A stretch of DNA of 64,000 nucleotides, from NCBI RefSeq assembly GCF_024138125.1, contig NZ_CP099993.1, forward strand, positions 1,240,001 through 1,304,000, written 5' to 3'. Of this stretch, positions 20,288 through 59,480 are shown one piece after another. Origin of the DNA: Halorussus salilacus. GTDB lineage: Archaea; Halobacteriota; Halobacteria; Halobacteriales; Haladaptataceae. The translations under genes and the position numbers were made by a program. Every line of letters begins with the position of its first letter. Positions within the stretch are counted from its first letter, which is position 1. The notes beneath the pieces were generated by a model that worked only from the letters and a program-made list of their open reading frames with translations, did not search any database and was not told the DNA's origin.

Positions 20288-21853
20288 TTAGTCGTCTGCG
20301 GATGCAGTGGAATCGACGCCCTCGATGCCGGGGATGCCCTCGACACCCATCGACGCCAGTTCTCGTTTCAGGCCCTGTTCGTCCTCGACGTTCTGGGACA
20401 GCTCCATCGCCTGCGCGAAGTTCTTCACCAGCCCACAGTTGGGCCCCTCCGGCGTCTCGGAGGGACAGATGCGACCCCACTGGGTCGCGTGGAGGTCCCG
20501 CGCCTCGAAGTGGGGCTGGGACCGCGAGAGCGGCGAGCGCAGGCGGCGGAGGTGCGAGAGCACGCCCATGAAGTCGGTGCGGTCGACGAGCTGTGAGACC
20601 CCCGACCGGCCGCCGACCCAGTTGCCCGTCGCGATGGGGTGTTCGAGCCGTTCGGTCAGCACGTCCGACCGGACCACGGTGTTGACCGACAGCTGACGGT
20701 TGCGCATGTTGGCGCGTTCGAGCTGGTACTTCACGTCCCGGGCCAGCTTGTTGAGCGCGGTCCGGAACAGGTCCTTCATCAGGTCGCCGCTGACCTTCAG
20801 GCGCTTGTTGGCGTAGTGGTCCTTGTCGTCGGGCTCGCGGCGTTCGAGCGCGAGCTCGAAGCACGCCTCGGCCATCCGACAGAGGTAGTACGCCTTGTTG
20901 ATGCGGACGTCCTCCTCCTCGACGCCCTCCTCGTGGAGATGGGGCAGGAGGTAGCGGTCGATGACGTAGTTGGCGCGCTTGAGCTGGTAGTTCTTGCCCT
21001 GCCCGGAGGCGACGCGCTTGCCGAGGGTCTCGATGGCCTCCTCCTCGGTCTGGACGTCGGCGGCCTCCAGATTTTCGAGCATGAACTTCACGATTTCGGG
21101 GTCGTCCGACACCCGGTGGACGATCTCCTCGTCGGACTCCAGCCCGAGCGCCCGGACCAGCGTCACGAAATTGACGCTCCCCGAGACCGAGGGGAACGAC
21201 ACTTCGAGCAGGCCGTCGCGGGTGCGCTCCACGAGGACGAGGGCGCGGTAGCCCCGGCGCTGAGAGAAGGTCTTGGCGACCTGAATCTCGTCGCCGTACT
21301 TGGTGTCGTACTCCGCGAGGATTTTGTTCGGCGCGAGGTCCTCGCTCGTCATCAGCACCCGCTCGGAGCCGTTGACGATGAAGTAGCCGCCGGGGTCGGC
21401 GGGGTCCTCGCCGATGTCGACGAGTTCCTCGTCGGAGAACCCGGCGATGTTGCACTTCTCGGAGCCGACCATGATGGGCATCCGGCCCACCTTGGTCTCG
21501 GTGGCGTCGACCACGCGCTCGTCTTCGCCCTCGCCCTTCACGATGGACATCTCCATGAACACGGGCGCGGAGTAGGTGATGTTACGGAGGCGGGCCTCCT
21601 GAGGGTAGAGGAGCTCCTCGCTCCCGTCGGCCTCCCGCACGCGCGGGGTCACGACTCGTACGTCGCCTAACTCGACGTGGACCGGCTCCTCGTCCTCCTT
21701 GTCGCCGATGTCGGTGTCGATGGTCCCCTTCTCGTCGACCACCTGTTGCATCCCTCGACCGAGGAACGCGTTGAACGAGCGGTAGTGGTGTTCTGCGAGC
21801 CGTTCCTTCGAGAAGTACTCCTTCGATATCGCGCGTCTGTCTTGCCTGTTCAT
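20288..21853 (-). CDS. rpoB2: DNA-directed RNA polymerase subunit B''
   Basis: 521-residue N-terminal half of the second-largest subunit. It contains the wall/fork region ([20 protein letters not shown], about 284-303) and the near-C-terminal [20 protein letters not shown] followed by [20 protein letters not shown] (about 468-487), a universal RNAP motif. Its ATG overlaps the last base of rpoH. Normal length for a split B''. Confidence 0.97.
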
Positions 21854-22080
21854 TATTCTACCACGAGTCGGTACACGGTCGCGGTGTCTGTCGTTCGGGA
21901 GTCGCGCACGATCTTGATCACGTCGCCGACCTCGGCGTCGTCGGGCAACGCCGGGTCGGTCCGTTTGATCTTCGGCAGGTCGGTTGGTTTGATGTCGTAC
22001 TCCTCCATCACGCCGTCTAACTCCTCGTCGTCGACGACGCTGTGGTCCGGCACCAGTTTGTGTTGGCTTACGTCTACCAT
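21853..22080 (-). CDS. rpoH: DNA-directed RNA polymerase subunit H
   Basis: 75-residue archaeal/eukaryotic-specific subunit H (Rpb5 C-terminal domain). Conserved elements are [22 protein letters not shown] and [12 protein letters not shown]...YRLVV. It promotes open-complex formation in archaeal polymerases (family knowledge). It heads the polymerase operon; the upstream region 22081-22170 should hold the main promoter for all the subunits. Confidence 0.96.
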
Positions 22081-22395
22081 GTGTGGCGGTGGATTCTCTG
22101 CGCAGAGGGAGAAATTGCTATCACGAGATACTACAGGGCATTACTCGCCCGATTCATTTAACACTTGCTAAGTAGGGCGCGCACCACGAGCTATCCGACC
22201 CCGCCCCCGTCGGCGGGTTCCGACGACGCCGGAGTGCCTAGTGGTGACAAGGACTGTACCGAAGTATAAATCGTTTGGGGCGGTGACGCGCCCGGGAGGC
22301 TCGAACCGGGGGTCGCCATCGGGACTCACCGACACGCCGACCTCGTTTGAGAAGCCTTAAGTCCAACCGGGGACAACCGGAGAATGCGTTCGAAA
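22081..22395. other. Intergenic region between rpoH and tRNA-Asp
   Basis: 315 bp with regulatory signals only. The minus-strand TTAAATGAATC around 22155-22163 fits the rpoH operon promoter. CCTTAAGTCC near 22355-22364 is the probable promoter of the first tRNA-Asp. AAGTATAAATCG near 22263-22273 is a good plus-strand TATA box with no convincing product: only a 25-codon GTG frame (22283-22360) follows. Confidence 0.55.
22150..22166 (-). promoter_or_regulatory. Candidate promoter of the polymerase operon
   Basis: On the minus strand AGTGTTAAATGAATC carries a TATA-like TTAAAT about 75 nt ahead of the rpoH ATG, implying an untranslated leader of roughly 50 nt, which is plausible for a major operon. 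It is the best AT-rich element in the upstream region. Confidence 0.35.
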
Positions 22396-22468
22396 GCCCG
22401 GGTGGTGTAGTGGCCCATCATACAACCCTGTCACGGTTGTGACGCGGGTTCAAATCCCGCCTCGGGCG
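22396..22468 (+). tRNA. tRNA-Asp (GTC), copy 1
   Basis: 73-nt cloverleaf. The acceptor stem is GCCCGGG/CTCGGGC with discriminator G; the anticodon stem CAACC/GGTTG closes a loop CTGTCAC with anticodon GTC (Asp). The T arm is GCGGGTTCAAATCCCGC. CCA is not encoded and there is no intron. Identical to the copy at 23178. Confidence 0.97.
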
Positions 22469-22635
22469 CTTTCTCTCGACGTTCGTTCAACAGAGGTCCG
22501 TCTCTGCGACGGTCGGTGTTCCGCAATCTGATTCCCGGATTCGTCTCCCATTACGACCGGACCACACGCATCGACTACAATCCAAAAATAGTCGATATAG
22601 GATAACTATATAAAGGGTAGCGAGTGAGAGAAAGT

Positions 22636-23064
22636 ATGGGAGGAACCGCGTCGTTCAATTCGAAGGACAAGGGTGATGAAACGGAAGCGACAGTCATTCA
22701 GAGGCTGATATCGAACGGCTATAGCGTCTCGATTCCGTTCGGAGATAACGACAAATACGACCTAATCGTGGACGACGGAAACCGACTCTATCGCGTTCAG
22801 TGCAAGACAGCGTGGGCCAACAAGGAAGAAACGATGCGGTTCAATACTCACTCCCAGACGACCAAAGACGGGGAGTATCACGAGAAGACGTATCACGGCG
22901 AGATAGACGCCTTCCTCGTACGCTACCCCGAAGACGGAACTATCTACTGGGTCGATGTAGAAGACGCCACCGAGCAGAAGATGGAGCTTCGATTCGATGC
23001 CGAGATAGCGCATCCGTCTATCAATTGGGCCGAGGAGTACAAGTTCGACGGGACGATTCCGTAA
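22636..23064 (+). CDS. PD-(D/E)XK endonuclease (PDDEXK_5 / group I intron-type)
   Basis: 142-residue nuclease-like protein. An early glutamate (DKGDETEATVIQRL), DKYDLIVDDGNRLYRVQCKTAW (about residues 38-59; catalytic D...QxK) and a following beta-alpha region fit the Holliday-junction-resolvase-like fold, close to the PDDEXK_5 family that includes proteins linked to group I introns. It lies between two identical tRNA-Asp genes. ATG at 22636; a GTG at 22624 would add four residues. Codon use is less GC-rich than its neighbours, suggesting transfer. Its target is unknown; the flanking tRNA genes are the obvious candidate. Confidence 0.85.
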   Translation: MGGTASFNSKDKGDETEATVIQRLISNGYSVSIPFGDNDKYDLIVDDGNRLYRVQCKTAWANKEETMRFNTHSQTTKDGEYHEKTYHGEIDAFLVRYPEDGTIYWVDVEDATEQKMELRFDAEIAHPSINWAEEYKFDGTIP

Positions 23065-23177
23065 GAGACGGACGAGTTCTACGGCACCTACCGTGGCCAT
23101 AGATAACATGGGACGGTGTCGGCCGAAATCGGCATACCTTAATACGGCCCGCCGAAATGAACGAGTGCACTCGGAAA

Positions 23178-23250
23178 GCCCGGGTGGTGTAGTGGCCCAT
23201 CATACAACCCTGTCACGGTTGTGACGCGGGTTCAAATCCCGCCTCGGGCG
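23178..23250 (+). tRNA. tRNA-Asp (GTC), copy 2
   Basis: 73-nt sequence identical in every base to the tRNA-Asp at 22396, with the same GAAAG and CTTTC flanks. The upstream sequence differs but keeps an ACCTTAATACGG promoter-like element about 40 nt before the mature 5' end, so both copies are probably expressed. Confidence 0.97.
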
Positions 23251-23340
23251 CTTTCCTGCTGACACCGAACTCCGAGACCCTTCTCACGCCCCGAGACGCG
23301 ATTGGACACGGTTTTGTGTTGCCGCCGCCGACCCGTGGAC

Positions 23341-23862
23341 ATGGTCAGACGGCGGCTCGGGACGAGCCTCTACGCGAGCGTCCTGTTCACGGTGCTCGGC
23401 CTGGTCGCGTGGCTCACCGGCCAGCCGTTCATCTTCCCGAGTCTCGGTCCCTCGGCGTTCATCCTCGCGTTCGACCGGCGCGGCGAGCGGATCACGACCT
23501 ACCGGATCGTCGGCAGTCACTTCATCGGGGCGGTGGCCGGACTGCTCGCGTACGCGCTCGTCGCCGACGGCGTCTCGCTCACCAGCACGCCCGCCGGGCT
23601 GTCGCCCGACGGGCTTCGGCTCGCCGCGAGCGGCGTCGTCTCCATCGCGGTCACCAGTTGGGGGATGATCGCGACCGACACGAACCACGCTCCGGCCTGC
23701 GCGACCACGCTCATCGTCTCGCTCGGACTGCTCTCGACCCCGCGACAGGCCGCGACCATCGTGGTGAGCGTCGTGATTCTGGTCGAGGCCCACTGGGCAT
23801 TCCTGTTCGCCTTCGAGCGACTGAAGTCCCGGTTGGAGACCGAGCCGGGGACCGCGGCGTAG
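23341..23862 (+). CDS. HPP family membrane protein
   Basis: 173-residue protein with about four membrane helices. FPSLGPSAFILAF (about residues 30-42) is the HPP-family signature region, and TNHAPACATTLIVSLGLL (about 117-134) is also conserved. Some HPP proteins transport nitrite into chloroplasts, but the archaeal members are uncharacterised, so the substrate is open. The ATG at 23341 fits; the longer frame upstream has no signal. It stands alone, followed by a short membrane protein. Confidence 0.85.
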   Translation: MVRRRLGTSLYASVLFTVLGLVAWLTGQPFIFPSLGPSAFILAFDRRGERITTYRIVGSHFIGAVAGLLAYALVADGVSLTSTPAGLSPDGLRLAASGVVSIAVTSWGMIATDTNHAPACATTLIVSLGLLSTPRQAATIVVSVVILVEAHWAFLFAFERLKSRLETEPGTAA

Positions 23863-55626: not shown

Positions 55627-56187
55627 ATGTCAGAAAGACTGTCGAAGGCACAGAGGGAGAAGGTACAGGAACTGATTGACGAGCGGGTTGAGGATATCAG
55701 ACGCGCCGCCCTGAAACTCAAGATAGAACAACTGACAGGGGAAGTCCTTGGCGAACTCCATAACCGTGGTGTAGATACCGACCCCGAAGGCATCGATATG
55801 GTGGAGATAGCTCGGGAGTGCGTATTGGACGTGATGTTCGGAGATGAGACATCAGCAGAGACCATCGAGATTCCAGTCGGTGGTCGGCATAACCACGGCC
55901 ACACTACGGAAGTCACTCTGGAAACAGAGGATGCGCCGGAGACGTATCTTGAGGAAGTCCCCATCGAGGACGGAGAAGACCCCGAAACTGTAGAGGTCGA
56001 ACGAGTTGAGCCATCCGGTGACCCTCGACTGAACGGAGAACTCAGCTCCTCCGAGATAACCCGGGCTTTCCAAGAGGGACTAACTCCCGAGATGATTCTA
56101 GGGGACCGTCACACGAATGACGAGGATACGTCTGAAGAGCCGAACCCGGAAGATGTACCCAGAGCCGGACTACCGTGGTACCAGTAA
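55627..56187 (+). CDS. Hypothetical acidic protein of the element
   Basis: 186 residues. N-terminal helices AQREKVQELIDERVEDIRRAALKLKIEQLTGEVLGELHNRGVD (about 8-50) look coiled-coil-like, followed by acidic, proline-rich linkers (EEVPIEDGEDPETVEVERVEPSGDP) and a short helical end. No known domain. First gene of the rightward run; the ATG follows a TGTA.ATG context directly. Confidence 0.65.
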   Translation: MSERLSKAQREKVQELIDERVEDIRRAALKLKIEQLTGEVLGELHNRGVDTDPEGIDMVEIARECVLDVMFGDETSAETIEIPVGGRHNHGHTTEVTLETEDAPETYLEEVPIEDGEDPETVEVERVEPSGDPRLNGELSSSEITRAFQEGLTPEMILGDRHTNDEDTSEEPNPEDVPRAGLPWYQ

Positions 56188-56189
56188 CA

Positions 56190-56396
56190 ATGAGTACGAG
56201 TGATTCCCTCAACGCGACGCCCAAAGACGCAGATCGGGTAGTGAAGATGGAGACGAACAGGGTCTACAATCCCGTCGTGAGTACAGAAGAGGTCGCCGAA
56301 GAACTTGGGATTGGTACGGAAGAGACGTTCGAGCTACTCGAAGAAGCCCCAAGACCCTCAGGAAAGCAAGTTGGGGATACTCACGTCTGGTGGTAA
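56190..56396 (+). CDS. Hypothetical protein with a helix-turn-helix-like segment
   Basis: 68 residues, ATG two nt after the previous stop. VVSTEEVAEELGIGTEETFELLEEAP (about 29-54) reads like an HTH with a recognition-type helix, suggesting a small DNA-binding protein. It ends THVWW. No family assigned. Confidence 0.55.
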   Translation: MSTSDSLNATPKDADRVVKMETNRVYNPVVSTEEVAEELGIGTEETFELLEEAPRPSGKQVGDTHVWW

Positions 56397-56485
56397 TAGG
56401 GATACAGAAAAGGGTCAAGAACGATGGAAATTGGACCTAATCCCTCTCGTCATCACCACACGTCCGAATCTCTCCAATCAATCCT

Positions 56486-57037
56486 ATGACGGACGATATC
56501 TGTGGCGCGACGAACCGTCACGGTGAACCCTGCCAGCAACCTGCTGGATGGGGAACCGACCACGTCGGAAAGGGTCGGTGCAAACTGCATGGTGGTAATG
56601 CAGGTGCGCCAGCGGATAATCAGAACGCCTCCAAACACGGGCTCAACGCTGACCTGCATCACTACTACCGGGACCTCCCACCTGAACAGAAGGAGTTCAT
56701 CGAGAAGATTGCCGCGACAATCGAGGATCGAGTTCGAGAGAACACGGGAACAGTCGACTATATGGACCGGGTCTTGTCCAAACAAGTGGCGATTCAACTC
56801 CACATCTCCTCGAAGGCGTCGGCATACATAGAGAAGGAGTCGGGGCTGGTTCAGGACGTTCCTGCAAGAGGTTCGACTCGCAAGGAAGCGGCTCCACTCC
56901 TCGAAGAGGTTCGTCGATACGATGACTCGATATTCAGAAATCTCAAGAAACTCGGTGTTCTCGACGACCCCGATTCACAGAAAGCTGATGCACTGGAATC
57001 TTGGCGCGATTTCATCGAGAAGAGCTACGATTCGTGA
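56486..57037 (+). CDS. HGG-motif, terminase-small-subunit-like protein
   Basis: 183 residues. CGATNRHGEPCQQPAGWGTDHVGKGRCKLHGGNAGAP (about 6-42) is the Cys/His cluster followed by CKLHGG, seen in small terminase-like and HGGxSTG proteins of phages and their parasites. The rest is helical. If it acts as a terminase small subunit, the element would carry DNA-packaging functions, yet no large terminase is present. ATG at 56486. Confidence 0.7.
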   Translation: MTDDICGATNRHGEPCQQPAGWGTDHVGKGRCKLHGGNAGAPADNQNASKHGLNADLHHYYRDLPPEQKEFIEKIAATIEDRVRENTGTVDYMDRVLSKQVAIQLHISSKASAYIEKESGLVQDVPARGSTRKEAAPLLEEVRRYDDSIFRNLKKLGVLDDPDSQKADALESWRDFIEKSYDS

Positions 57038-57478
57038 GCCGCCGTGAACGAGGTCCTATGCGATTTTTCGATTCATCAGGTTCATTCCTCTGCTCCAGAT
57101 AACAATTGGCAAATGACGGCAGATATAGCCGTCTCTGCGAAAGTGGGTGTCAGAAGGTGGACTTGAAACGTGACCCCCGGTCCCTTTCGTGCCTCGACGC
57201 ACCTCGGTCATGGACGGGATATCCTCTTTAGCCCAACCCCCCGTTTTCGAAATACGGCGCAATAGTATTCAGAGTATCAAAATCTTCCGGAGAATGCTCG
57301 TAAGAGGGATCTGTGCCGGAGAGGTCAATTCCCTAATGAGATAGCAGTGAGGCTGGTTCACAGGTAGGTGAATGATCCTTACTGGAGCCTCACCGAGTTC
57401 AGGTGTGACCCCGTAATGGAGATAGGGAACATATTCAGAAGAGAAAGAATTGTAAATCTACCAAAGGTGGTGGCGAGT
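57038..57478. other. 441-bp region without a supported gene
   Basis: No reliable coding frame. A minus-strand frame (57056-57262) has low support. TGTAAATCTACC (about 57450-57461) is the probable promoter of the pentapeptide-repeat gene. No other sites are evident. Confidence 0.55.
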
Positions 57479-58618
57479 ATGGAAAGTTCACCCTCTGACC
57501 GATGTTGTTACACATGGCCAGAGGACCATGCAGTTGATGATCGACCTAATCAACAGAGTTCGTGCTGGCGGAAGGCGTATTCCGAAGAAGCAGACCATTG
57601 TCTCTGGCATGCAAACCCGAATAGTGTGTCAAAGTCTGCTGAAGAACTCAGGGTTGTTTGCTCGGATACCGAGGTCCGGGAACAGTGTTCAGGATACTCC
57701 GAGTTACTTGACGGAGCCAAGCTATCGGGTGTAAATCTCGAAGATTCCCTTTCATTTACAAACGTCGCGTTGCGAGACGCGGTTCTTCCGGGGTCGAATC
57801 TCTCCGGAGTGGTCCTAAAGGATGCGGATCTCACTGACGCAGTTCTTTGGGATGCTGATCTTTCTAACGCAAATCTTTCAAAAGCGGACCTTTCCGACGC
57901 AGATCTTCGGGATATAGACCTTTCCGATGCAAACCTATCAAATTCCGACCTCTCTGACGCAGATCTTCTGGATGCTGATCTCTCTAATGCTTCACTCAGA
58001 GGTGCAACTCTCACCGGTGCAGACATTCGGGAAGCAGATATCACGGGAGTATCCGTAACCGGAGCGACGACTTGCAAGCGTCTATTTGAGGGGTATGATG
58101 GTGAGATATCGACTGAAGATAGTTTCATACCAATGCGTCTCCGGAAGTGGCACTTCGGCTCAAACTTCGGACCTAGAGAATGGGAATCAACTGCACGAGC
58201 TTACCATGAGCTCAAATCCATATTAAGTGATCATGGATTAGTGGGTCAGTCTAGAGACATATATGTGAGGGAACGCCGGGCCCGTAGCCTTGAAGCGAAG
58301 GCTGATGGGGGTTCCCTGAATCTCAGGTATTGTGGTTCGCTTCTCTCTCAACTCTTTACCGGATACGGTGTTAAAGTTCGAAACCTCTTGGGTTGGATGG
58401 TAGCGTTATTTCTCTTTTCGACATCGATTTACGTTATCGCGGGTGTTGAGGAGAGTCTCATGAGGAATATTTCCTACAGTGTTCTTGCCTTCACGGTTGC
58501 TCCTCCAAAGATTCCTTCAGGTACTGGAGTACAATTTGTCATGATGATAGAAACGTTCTTTGGAACACTTTCGATAGTGCTATTAGGTTACATCCTTGGC
58601 AACCGAGAACGGTTTTGA
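57479..58618 (+). CDS. Pentapeptide-repeat protein fused to an ion-channel-like domain
   Basis: 379 residues. An N-terminal Cys-rich CCYTWP...CLWH domain is followed by about fifteen pentapeptide repeats, A(D/N)LSx type (about residues 85-195), forming a right-handed quadrilateral helix, then two membrane helices with a pore-like TVAPPKIPSGTG segment (about 340-379). Such fusions resemble potassium-channel-like haloarchaeal proteins. The ATG at 57479 is leaderless (TATA at 57450); a GTG at 57368 would add 37 residues. It may depolarise the membrane when triggered, but this is inference. Confidence 0.8.
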   Translation: MESSPSDRCCYTWPEDHAVDDRPNQQSSCWRKAYSEEADHCLWHANPNSVSKSAEELRVVCSDTEVREQCSGYSELLDGAKLSGVNLEDSLSFTNVALRDAVLPGSNLSGVVLKDADLTDAVLWDADLSNANLSKADLSDADLRDIDLSDANLSNSDLSDADLLDADLSNASLRGATLTGADIREADITGVSVTGATTCKRLFEGYDGEISTEDSFIPMRLRKWHFGSNFGPREWESTARAYHELKSILSDHGLVGQSRDIYVRERRARSLEAKADGGSLNLRYCGSLLSQLFTGYGVKVRNLLGWMVALFLFSTSIYVIAGVEESLMRNISYSVLAFTVAPPKIPSGTGVQFVMMIETFFGTLSIVLLGYILGNRERF

Positions 58619-58667
58619 TAGTTGCAGAGAGGCAAGGTTCTCGAAGAGGCACCCAAAATTGGAGCTA

Positions 58668-59081
58668 CTATGGCCAGTCAACCTCATCTGCGTTTTCTTG
58701 TCCGGGATATGGAGGCCAACGGCCGTGTTCATTTGGGCCGTATTCTTCTGGACGAGCTATCTCTGACCGCTCTCGTACAACTCGGTCAGTAACTTTAATC
58801 GCTACGTCATTACGCTTGTGGACTCCAAATACTCGTTCGTCTTGGTATTGGAATTCCCAATACTGGTGGTCGTCGAGGAAGATTAACCCTGGTTCCTTGC
58901 AACCAGGTCGTCCGCAGGTCGCGGCCGTATCGGGATATCCGATAGGTTTGACGGCCGCGATGTAGGTGTACCCATCCTTCCGTTCCTGCGGCCCCCCACC
59001 GTGAACGTGCCCATTACAGCGACTGAGCATAGAAAGGAGGTCAATCCCCTTCCCTATAAAGAAGCTTCTCGACGCCGTCAT
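58668..59081 (-). CDS. Hypothetical protein, last gene of the element
   Basis: 137 residues on the minus strand. CGRPGCKEPGLIFLDDHQYWEFQYQDERVFGVHKRND (about 61-97) contains a CxxxxC pair and aromatic-rich strands; the N-terminal part has CNGHVHGGG. No family recognised. An ATG at 59030 is an alternative start (87 bp shorter frame from CNGH); a TTTAATCTTA box at about 59091-59101 serves either. Confidence 0.55.
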   Translation of the reverse strand: MTASRSFFIGKGIDLLSMLSRCNGHVHGGGPQERKDGYTYIAAVKPIGYPDTAATCGRPGCKEPGLIFLDDHQYWEFQYQDERVFGVHKRNDVAIKVTDRVVRERSEIARPEEYGPNEHGRWPPYPGQENADEVDWP

Positions 59082-59406
59082 TAGTAGGAGATAAGATTAA
59101 ACCAGGCTATTCCCTTGTCCCATTCAGGAATTCGGTCTCAAGCGCAGTCAGCCGCCTTAGAATTTGATTCAGAGCGATTGGGAAGCCATGGAGCTTCAAG
59201 AATCTCGAATATCGTCGTGTCACGGTCTGCGTGTACCGTGTACGGGAGCACGAGTAATTACAAGGGCCTCGCAATTCAATTGAGAGCGAAGCGCCCGAAG
59301 ACGTTAGGGCGCGAGCTAAACCATGGTCAAATCTCAGGGCGGTTTTCGGAAGATAATGGCCGGAAGGCGTTGCTGGCTGGTGAATGAGGACCGAGTAAAT
59401 TTCGGA
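59082..59406. other. 325-bp region, nothing convincing
   Basis: Between the last gene of the element and tRNA-Phe. Frames on both strands overlap the tRNA or lack starts. The promoter of the minus gene at 58668 sits at its left edge. Confidence 0.55.
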
Positions 59407-59429
59407 TGCCGCCTCCCGGATTTGAACCG
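59406..59429. other. attR within tRNA-Phe
   Basis: The 24 bp identical to 49427-49450, covering the T-arm and acceptor 3' strand of tRNA-Phe. The tRNA stays intact after integration. Confidence 0.85.
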
Positions 59430-59480
59430 GGGACAGCTCGATCTTCAGTCGAGTGCTCTCCCAGTCTGAGCTAAGGCGGC
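59407..59480 (-). tRNA. tRNA-Phe (GAA)
   Basis: 74-nt cloverleaf on the minus strand. Acceptor GCCGCCT/AGGCGGC with discriminator A; D arm TAGCTCAGACTGGGAGAGC; anticodon stem CTCGA/TCGAG with loop CTGAAGA and anticodon GAA (Phe); T arm CCCCGGTTCAAATCCGGG. No intron, CCA not encoded. Its 3' end is the integration site of the adjacent element. Confidence 0.97.

Follow-up and report, generated by a model that had tools for sequence, protein, structure and literature searches.

A chromosomal PD-(D/E)XK nuclease linked to tRNA-Asp genes in haloarchaea: a probable free-standing homing endonuclease with matched tRNA alleles

Within the window analyzed here, a stretch of 64,000 nucleotides from the chromosome of Halorussus salilacus, two direct repeats of 82 nt (positions 22392-22473 and 23174-23255, plus strand) are 100% identical, and each comprises one whole tRNA-Asp(GTC) gene (22396-22469 and 23178-23251, respectively, plus strand), matched by the Rfam tRNA family. 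Both tRNA genes carry the pair A28-U42 in the anticodon stem: the left stem-loop (22423-22439, plus strand; CAACC-CTGTCAC-GGTTG) has A at 22424 and T at 22438, where the common allele has G and C, and the right one (23205-23221, plus strand) has A at 23206 and T at 23220. The association of alleles with nuclease types described below makes this stem-loop the putative target region, here in what would be its resistant form. The single intact open reading frame (ORF) between the repeats (22636-23064, plus strand) encodes a free-standing PD-(D/E)XK nuclease of the PDDEXK_5 family, 142 aa long when counted from the ATG, with a GTG at 22624 as a possible alternative start; the only other open frames of at least 60 aa in the segment, on either strand, overlap it. 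The nuclease segment has a GC content of 49-55%, compared to 64-78% in the flanking coding regions, and no integrase was found between the repeats. The identical repeats with their whole tRNA-Asp genes, the AT-rich nuclease enclosed by them and the lack of an integrase had been noted in the original prediction and are borne out by the present analysis. A group I intron remnant was considered and rejected: comparison of positions 21800-23600 with Rfam gave no intron at E <= 1, and the nuclease ORF sits between intact tRNA genes, outside any group I intron. The genome contains one nuclease gene of the PDDEXK_5 family and no second copy of the cassette. Elsewhere in the window, positions 55627-59480 encompass phage-like ORFs, one of which resembles a small terminase, and a gene for a pentapeptide-repeat membrane protein, upstream of a tRNA-Phe gene on the minus strand; this region is perhaps an integrated element.

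The nuclease matches the Pfam profile PF11645 (PDDEXK_5) with an E-value of 1.9e-40 and a score of 138.5 bits (curated cut-off, 26.1), residues 8-137 aligning with positions 2-137 of the 138 in the profile. The nearest sequence in the PDB is 2OST, the endonuclease I-Ssp6803I, in agreement with the proposed kinship to intron-associated enzymes. When an AF2 model of the nuclease (pLDDT 89) was compared to known structures with Foldseek, 2OST was again the best match (E = 2e-9), and the top four hits were all chains of this structure. The motifs YD and VQxK are common to both proteins, and the residues E17, D42, Q55 and K57, invariant across 27 homologs, line up with the active site. Among the nuclease copies, synonymous differences are near saturation and pN is about 0.15, and therefore the nuclease evolves under strong purifying selection. 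The relatives from plasmids and phages are all less than 60% identical to the window nuclease, and no close relatives were detected among viral contigs; the one plasmid copy examined has no tRNA gene beside it. In several tRNA-Pro-linked ORFs (L360, L365, L366, L371, L376 and L379), two nuclease domains are fused, the second one lacking the Q-x-K motif. A step from homodimer to monomer is known for the LAGLIDADG enzymes, and the fused Pro-linked nucleases resemble it in outline.

A relative of the nuclease is present, at E <= 1e-5, in 189 of the 392 haloarchaeal genomes, a sample that holds one genome per species and thus addresses differences between species. The loci chosen for inspection were the better matches among these relatives. 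In this set, 178 of the 185 distinct haloarchaeal copies are separate ORFs with a tRNA gene on the same strand within 1 kb upstream, that is, beside the presumed target gene, as is characteristic of free-standing homing endonucleases; four of the remaining seven have a tRNA gene only downstream and three have none, and none of the 185 has a tRNA gene on the opposite strand within 1 kb. The median gap between the tRNA and the nuclease is about 210 bp. The close relatives of the window nuclease are located at tRNA-Asp, and the more distant ones at tRNA-Asn, tRNA-Pro(TGG), tRNA-Lys(TTT), tRNA-Gly(TCC) or tRNA-Ser(TGA). In the nuclease tree, the Asn-, Lys- and Pro-linked copies form separate supported clades, and the Asp-linked copies fall into three groups, A (which includes the window nuclease), B and C.

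The usual gene order in Halorussus and its relatives is tRNA-nuclease-tRNA; elsewhere, the order is tRNA-nuclease or tRNA-tRNA-nuclease, so that many carriers of the nuclease have a single tRNA-Asp or two copies on one side. Conversely, four Halorussus genomes (G017, G090, G130 and G176) contain tRNA-Asp pairs with broken nuclease remnants or with no nuclease, G017, from the same genus as the window, being a case of a pair kept without the nuclease. Moreover, the identity of the repeats in the window extends only 4-5 nt past the tRNA-Asp on each side, and at other two-copy loci the identity beyond the tRNA is mostly short, with a few longer cases, which rules out the 82-bp repeat as a cassette boundary. 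The two tRNA-Asp copies within one genome are nearly always identical, suggesting gene conversion between them. The two-tRNA bracket is incidental, and the homing-like cassette of the original prediction survives only in part: fold, sequence and comparative evidence favor an enzyme that would attack the tRNA gene and move by repair of the resulting break, but the idea that the two tRNA copies define the mobile unit finds no support. The proposed comparison of empty and filled sites could be made, with empty loci, that is, a lone tRNA-Asp without a nuclease, in several genera, and clean pairs of empty and filled sites at tRNA-Asn; the arrangement is thus not a fixed one devoid of empty sites. 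An integrase-type genomic island with att sites in the tRNA genes would account for direct repeats at a tRNA gene that enclose a segment of foreign appearance, but there is no integrase, the repeats are whole tRNA genes rather than 3' ends, and many carriers lack one of the repeats, so that we reject this reading as extremely improbable. As a separate observation, many haloarchaea (L012, 865-1500; L083, 370-895; L174, 2470-2960; L035; L151; L163; L169) have up to three units in tandem, each about 130 bp long, downstream of tRNA-Asp, whereas the window has none; a unit contains an inverted GGATTTGAA/TTCAAATCC pair, and the 3' end of the tRNA is repeated as a 22-bp copy at its end. In the four loci tested, the units gave no Rfam match at the gathering threshold.

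The tRNA-Asp allele follows the type of nuclease. Clade-A loci have A28-U42 in the anticodon stem, and clade-B/C loci have G28-C42. In a scan of the 392 genomes with the pattern CAACCCTGTCACGGTTGTGACGC, which is independent of the nuclease, A28 was found in 65 of 69 clade-A genomes, 2 of 44 clade-B/C genomes and 53 of the 279 others. When stratified by genus, the association has a P-value of 2.7e-15 over 14 genera, and it is almost perfect within these 14 genera that hold both kinds. Three of the four clade-A carriers without A28 have another altered pair, G29-C41 in two and C28-G42 in one (stem codes GGCC, GGCC and CATG); the fourth, G180, combines a clade-A nuclease with the common stem and has a transposase gene between the tRNA-Asp and the nuclease, with some 70 bp separating the end of the transposase gene from the nuclease ORF. 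G180 is also one of the three copies without any tRNA gene within 1 kb. The G180 transposase gene (L191, 1502-2499) is split over two frames and has the look of the IS630 type. As for the two clade-B/C exceptions, G102 is actually a clade-A copy with an internal deletion, judging by its sequence and position in the tree, and G293 has a stop codon near the start of the nuclease. With G102 reassigned, G180 is the only one of the 70 clade-A genomes with the common form of both pairs, 28-42 and 29-41, the other 69 having a change at one of them. The A28 allele is not exclusive to carriers, given its presence in the 53 genomes without an Asp-linked nuclease. Two genomes without the nuclease, G027 and G056 (L144 and L172), are 93% identical over 5 kb and differ in the tRNA-Asp allele, A28-U42 against G28-C42; a nuclease that has since disappeared may have left this difference behind.

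Close linkage would by itself suffice to associate alleles with nucleases, and haloarchaea recombine freely, so that the two neighbors might simply have been exchanged together by ordinary recombination, the tRNA gene being no target at all. However, only the pair 28-42 follows the nuclease clade: at positions 7, 21, 66 and 67 of the same 74-bp gene, including the acceptor stem, both variants occur in both clades, which restricts the signal to the anticodon stem. In addition, three different altered pairs accompany clade A, the sole carrier of the ancestral allele is the one in which a transposase gene separates the tRNA from the nuclease, and tRNA-Asn shows another kind of change in this arm, an intron, in the same role (see below). 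Thus, we consider hitchhiking unlikely.

The tRNA-Asn loci were compared across 52 genomes of one Halorubrum-like genus. In the empty loci, tRNA-Asn lies near tRNA-Met, and in the filled ones the nuclease is in between. An intron of 34-37 nt in the anticodon loop of tRNA-Asn is present in 23 of these genomes and absent in 27, and an intact Asn-linked nuclease is found in 20 of the 23 with the intron as opposed to 3 of the 27 without it (P = 7e-8). Broken copies occur at four more intron-free loci and at no intron-bearing locus (P = 0.002), so that 7 intron-free loci have nuclease copies (4 of them broken) and about 20 are empty; the intact copies beside an intron-free tRNA-Asn are those of G021, G301 and G398. 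In Halorussus, the tRNA-Lys intron is polymorphic, and the Lys-linked nuclease is present in none of the 7 intron-free genomes; the Lys carriers inspected, a small sample, have the intron in 5 of 5 cases. For tRNA-Pro(TGG), the common stem CGGGC accompanies 1 of 19 intact carriers (G288) compared to 25 of 53 non-carriers (P = 8e-4). Anticodon-loop introns in tRNA-Asn (L330-L354) and tRNA-Lys (L269-L273) were observed in several haloarchaea and are polymorphic within genera. The anticodon arm is a usual place of attack for tRNA-cleaving toxins, and both the allele changes and the introns fall in this arm, as would be the case if the protein cleaved tRNA-Asp itself, with the neighboring tRNA allele or intron serving as the antidote. 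Such a toxin acting on RNA is very unlikely, considering that the fold and active site fit a DNA homing endonuclease and that an intron, being absent from the mature tRNA, would not protect the RNA, yet interrupts the DNA site.

The fold, sequence and comparative evidence agree, and tRNA alleles and types of nuclease go together; we accordingly consider it likely that the window nuclease is a selfish, free-standing homing endonuclease of the tRNA-Asp gene whose carriers are immune owing to an altered stem. Owing to the base pairing of the anticodon stem, the DNA of the tRNA gene is palindromic there and would naturally suit a small nuclease that works as a homodimer. Under this scenario, the enzyme, probably such a homodimer, would act on the palindromic DNA of the tRNA-Asp anticodon stem-loop. 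It would cut a tRNA-Asp gene whose stem is the common one (half-site CGACC, with G28-C42 and A29-U41), and when the break is repaired from the nuclease-bearing locus, the cut locus would acquire both the nuclease and the resistant tRNA, as in intronless homing with co-conversion. The carrier's own tRNA-Asp would escape by virtue of a different pair, A28-U42 here and either C28-G42 or G29-C41 in other carriers; as the two sides of the stem pair with each other, a single compensatory swap alters both half-sites while the tRNA still folds. An intron in the anticodon loop would separate the two half-sites and likewise confer the donor immunity that intronless homing requires. The sister clades would do the same at tRNA-Asn, tRNA-Lys and tRNA-Pro, with immunity provided by an anticodon-loop intron or another stem. 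We infer cleavage, dimerization, the exact cut site and repair-driven transfer; the carrier-specific changes in the anticodon arm, as read from the sequences, imply resistance of the donor allele. The joint carriage of the nuclease and the resistant tRNA would explain their joint switching within genera, and the decayed nuclease copies are in keeping with the life cycle of homing endonucleases. Several observations count against the scenario: the three intact Asn-linked copies beside an intron-free tRNA-Asn, the Pro-linked copy beside the common stem, the small Lys numbers, the A28 alleles in genomes without an Asp-linked nuclease, and clades B and C. The allele of these two clades is shared with most empty genomes, and their immunity must therefore have another basis; a reciprocal specificity of these clades is only a guess, which their near-confinement to genomes without A28 fits.

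Viral genomes also contain relatives of the nuclease next to tRNA genes. The halovirus HSTV-4 has a tRNA-Asn directly upstream of a PDDEXK_5 relative, and phages of Salmonella, Pectobacterium, Pseudoalteromonas and Enterococcus have tRNA genes close to one; in the viral loci L390, L391, L392, L393 and L395, the nucleases lie within or beside tRNA genes, and the Enterococcus phage EFP01 also has a ROOL RNA nearby. In EFP01, ARAGORN permits a tRNA-Asp interrupted by 463 nt that include the nuclease ORF, but a search there for a group I intron gave nothing, and this case was set aside. The carriage of tRNA genes, and even of related nucleases, by haloviruses such as HSTV-4, along with the strong purifying selection on the nuclease, is compatible with a role in host defense whereby the nuclease cuts the tRNA genes that invading viruses bring in, the host's own tRNA allele being a mark of self. 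We view this possibility as quite unlikely given that the patchiness, the broken copies, the linkage to one isotype and the occurrence of the nuclease in viruses suggest a selfish gene and not an immune function; defense and homing are, nevertheless, compatible and not mutually exclusive. The patchy distribution, the coexistence of empty and filled alleles and the decayed copies, observed at both the Asp and the Asn loci, are among the features of intronless homing, which remains our preferred explanation for the window nuclease. A broader proposition, somewhat doubtful at this stage, is that this PD-(D/E)XK family hunts tRNA genes by the palindrome of the anticodon arm, with a clade for each isotype, such that clade A would spare A28-U42 and cut G28-C42 and clades B and C would do the opposite, and that the ensuing arms race drives both stem diversity and the gain of tRNA introns, the introns being a form of immunity. 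More generally, a chromosomal archaeal nuclease family appears to target the tRNA anticodon arm, and the evolution of host tRNAs seems to respond by compensatory stem swaps, new introns and tRNA duplication, which would offer a testable cause for the introns and odd anticodon stems of some archaeal tRNA genes. The matched pairs of nuclease clade and putatively resistant allele would also provide compact enzymes for which resistant controls exist in nature.

For the tRNA genes of cells, the known homing endonucleases are mainly encoded within introns, and the free-standing ones known come mainly from phages. In the open-licence literature, we found no report of a haloarchaeal tRNA-linked homing nuclease or of a link to tRNA alleles. 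The closest relative of known structure, I-Ssp6803I (2OST), is encoded by the group I intron of tRNA-fMet in Synechocystis (PMC1995217), and its site of action, according to the title of Bonocora and Shub 2001 (as cited in PMC3984707), is the anticodon region of a tRNA gene. I-Ssp6803I shares with the window nuclease the Pfam family, the fold and the Q-x-K active-site motif, but is intron-encoded, whereas the window nuclease is free-standing, beside a tRNA gene on an archaeal chromosome and outside any group I intron, and so falls outside the class of ORFs within such introns that I-Ssp6803I typifies. Immunity is conferred by a self-splicing intron in the case of I-Ssp6803I and would be conferred by a stem-pair swap or a small tRNA intron in haloarchaea, where, unlike I-Ssp6803I, the nuclease clades are tied to different isotypes. 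Among the systems covered by reviews of intronless homing (PMC3984707, PMC2988022), SegB of phages T4 and T6 is described, in the relevant passages, as a free-standing GIY-YIG homing endonuclease for the phage tRNA region, where it cleaves inside tRNA genes and drives the inheritance or amplification of the region (PMC2988022, PMC13096335). SegB is free-standing like the haloarchaeal nuclease but belongs to an unrelated nuclease family and is phage-borne, whereas the haloarchaeal copies are chromosomal; it is described as having no isotype preference (PMC13096335), in contrast to the haloarchaeal clades that follow the isotype, and the passages on SegB (PMC2988022, PMC13096335) make no mention of immunity by tRNA allele. 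Compared to both systems, a chromosomal, free-standing PD-(D/E)XK homing endonuclease that would be directed at tRNA genes and matched by tRNA immunity appears to be a variant not reported in the open-licence literature.
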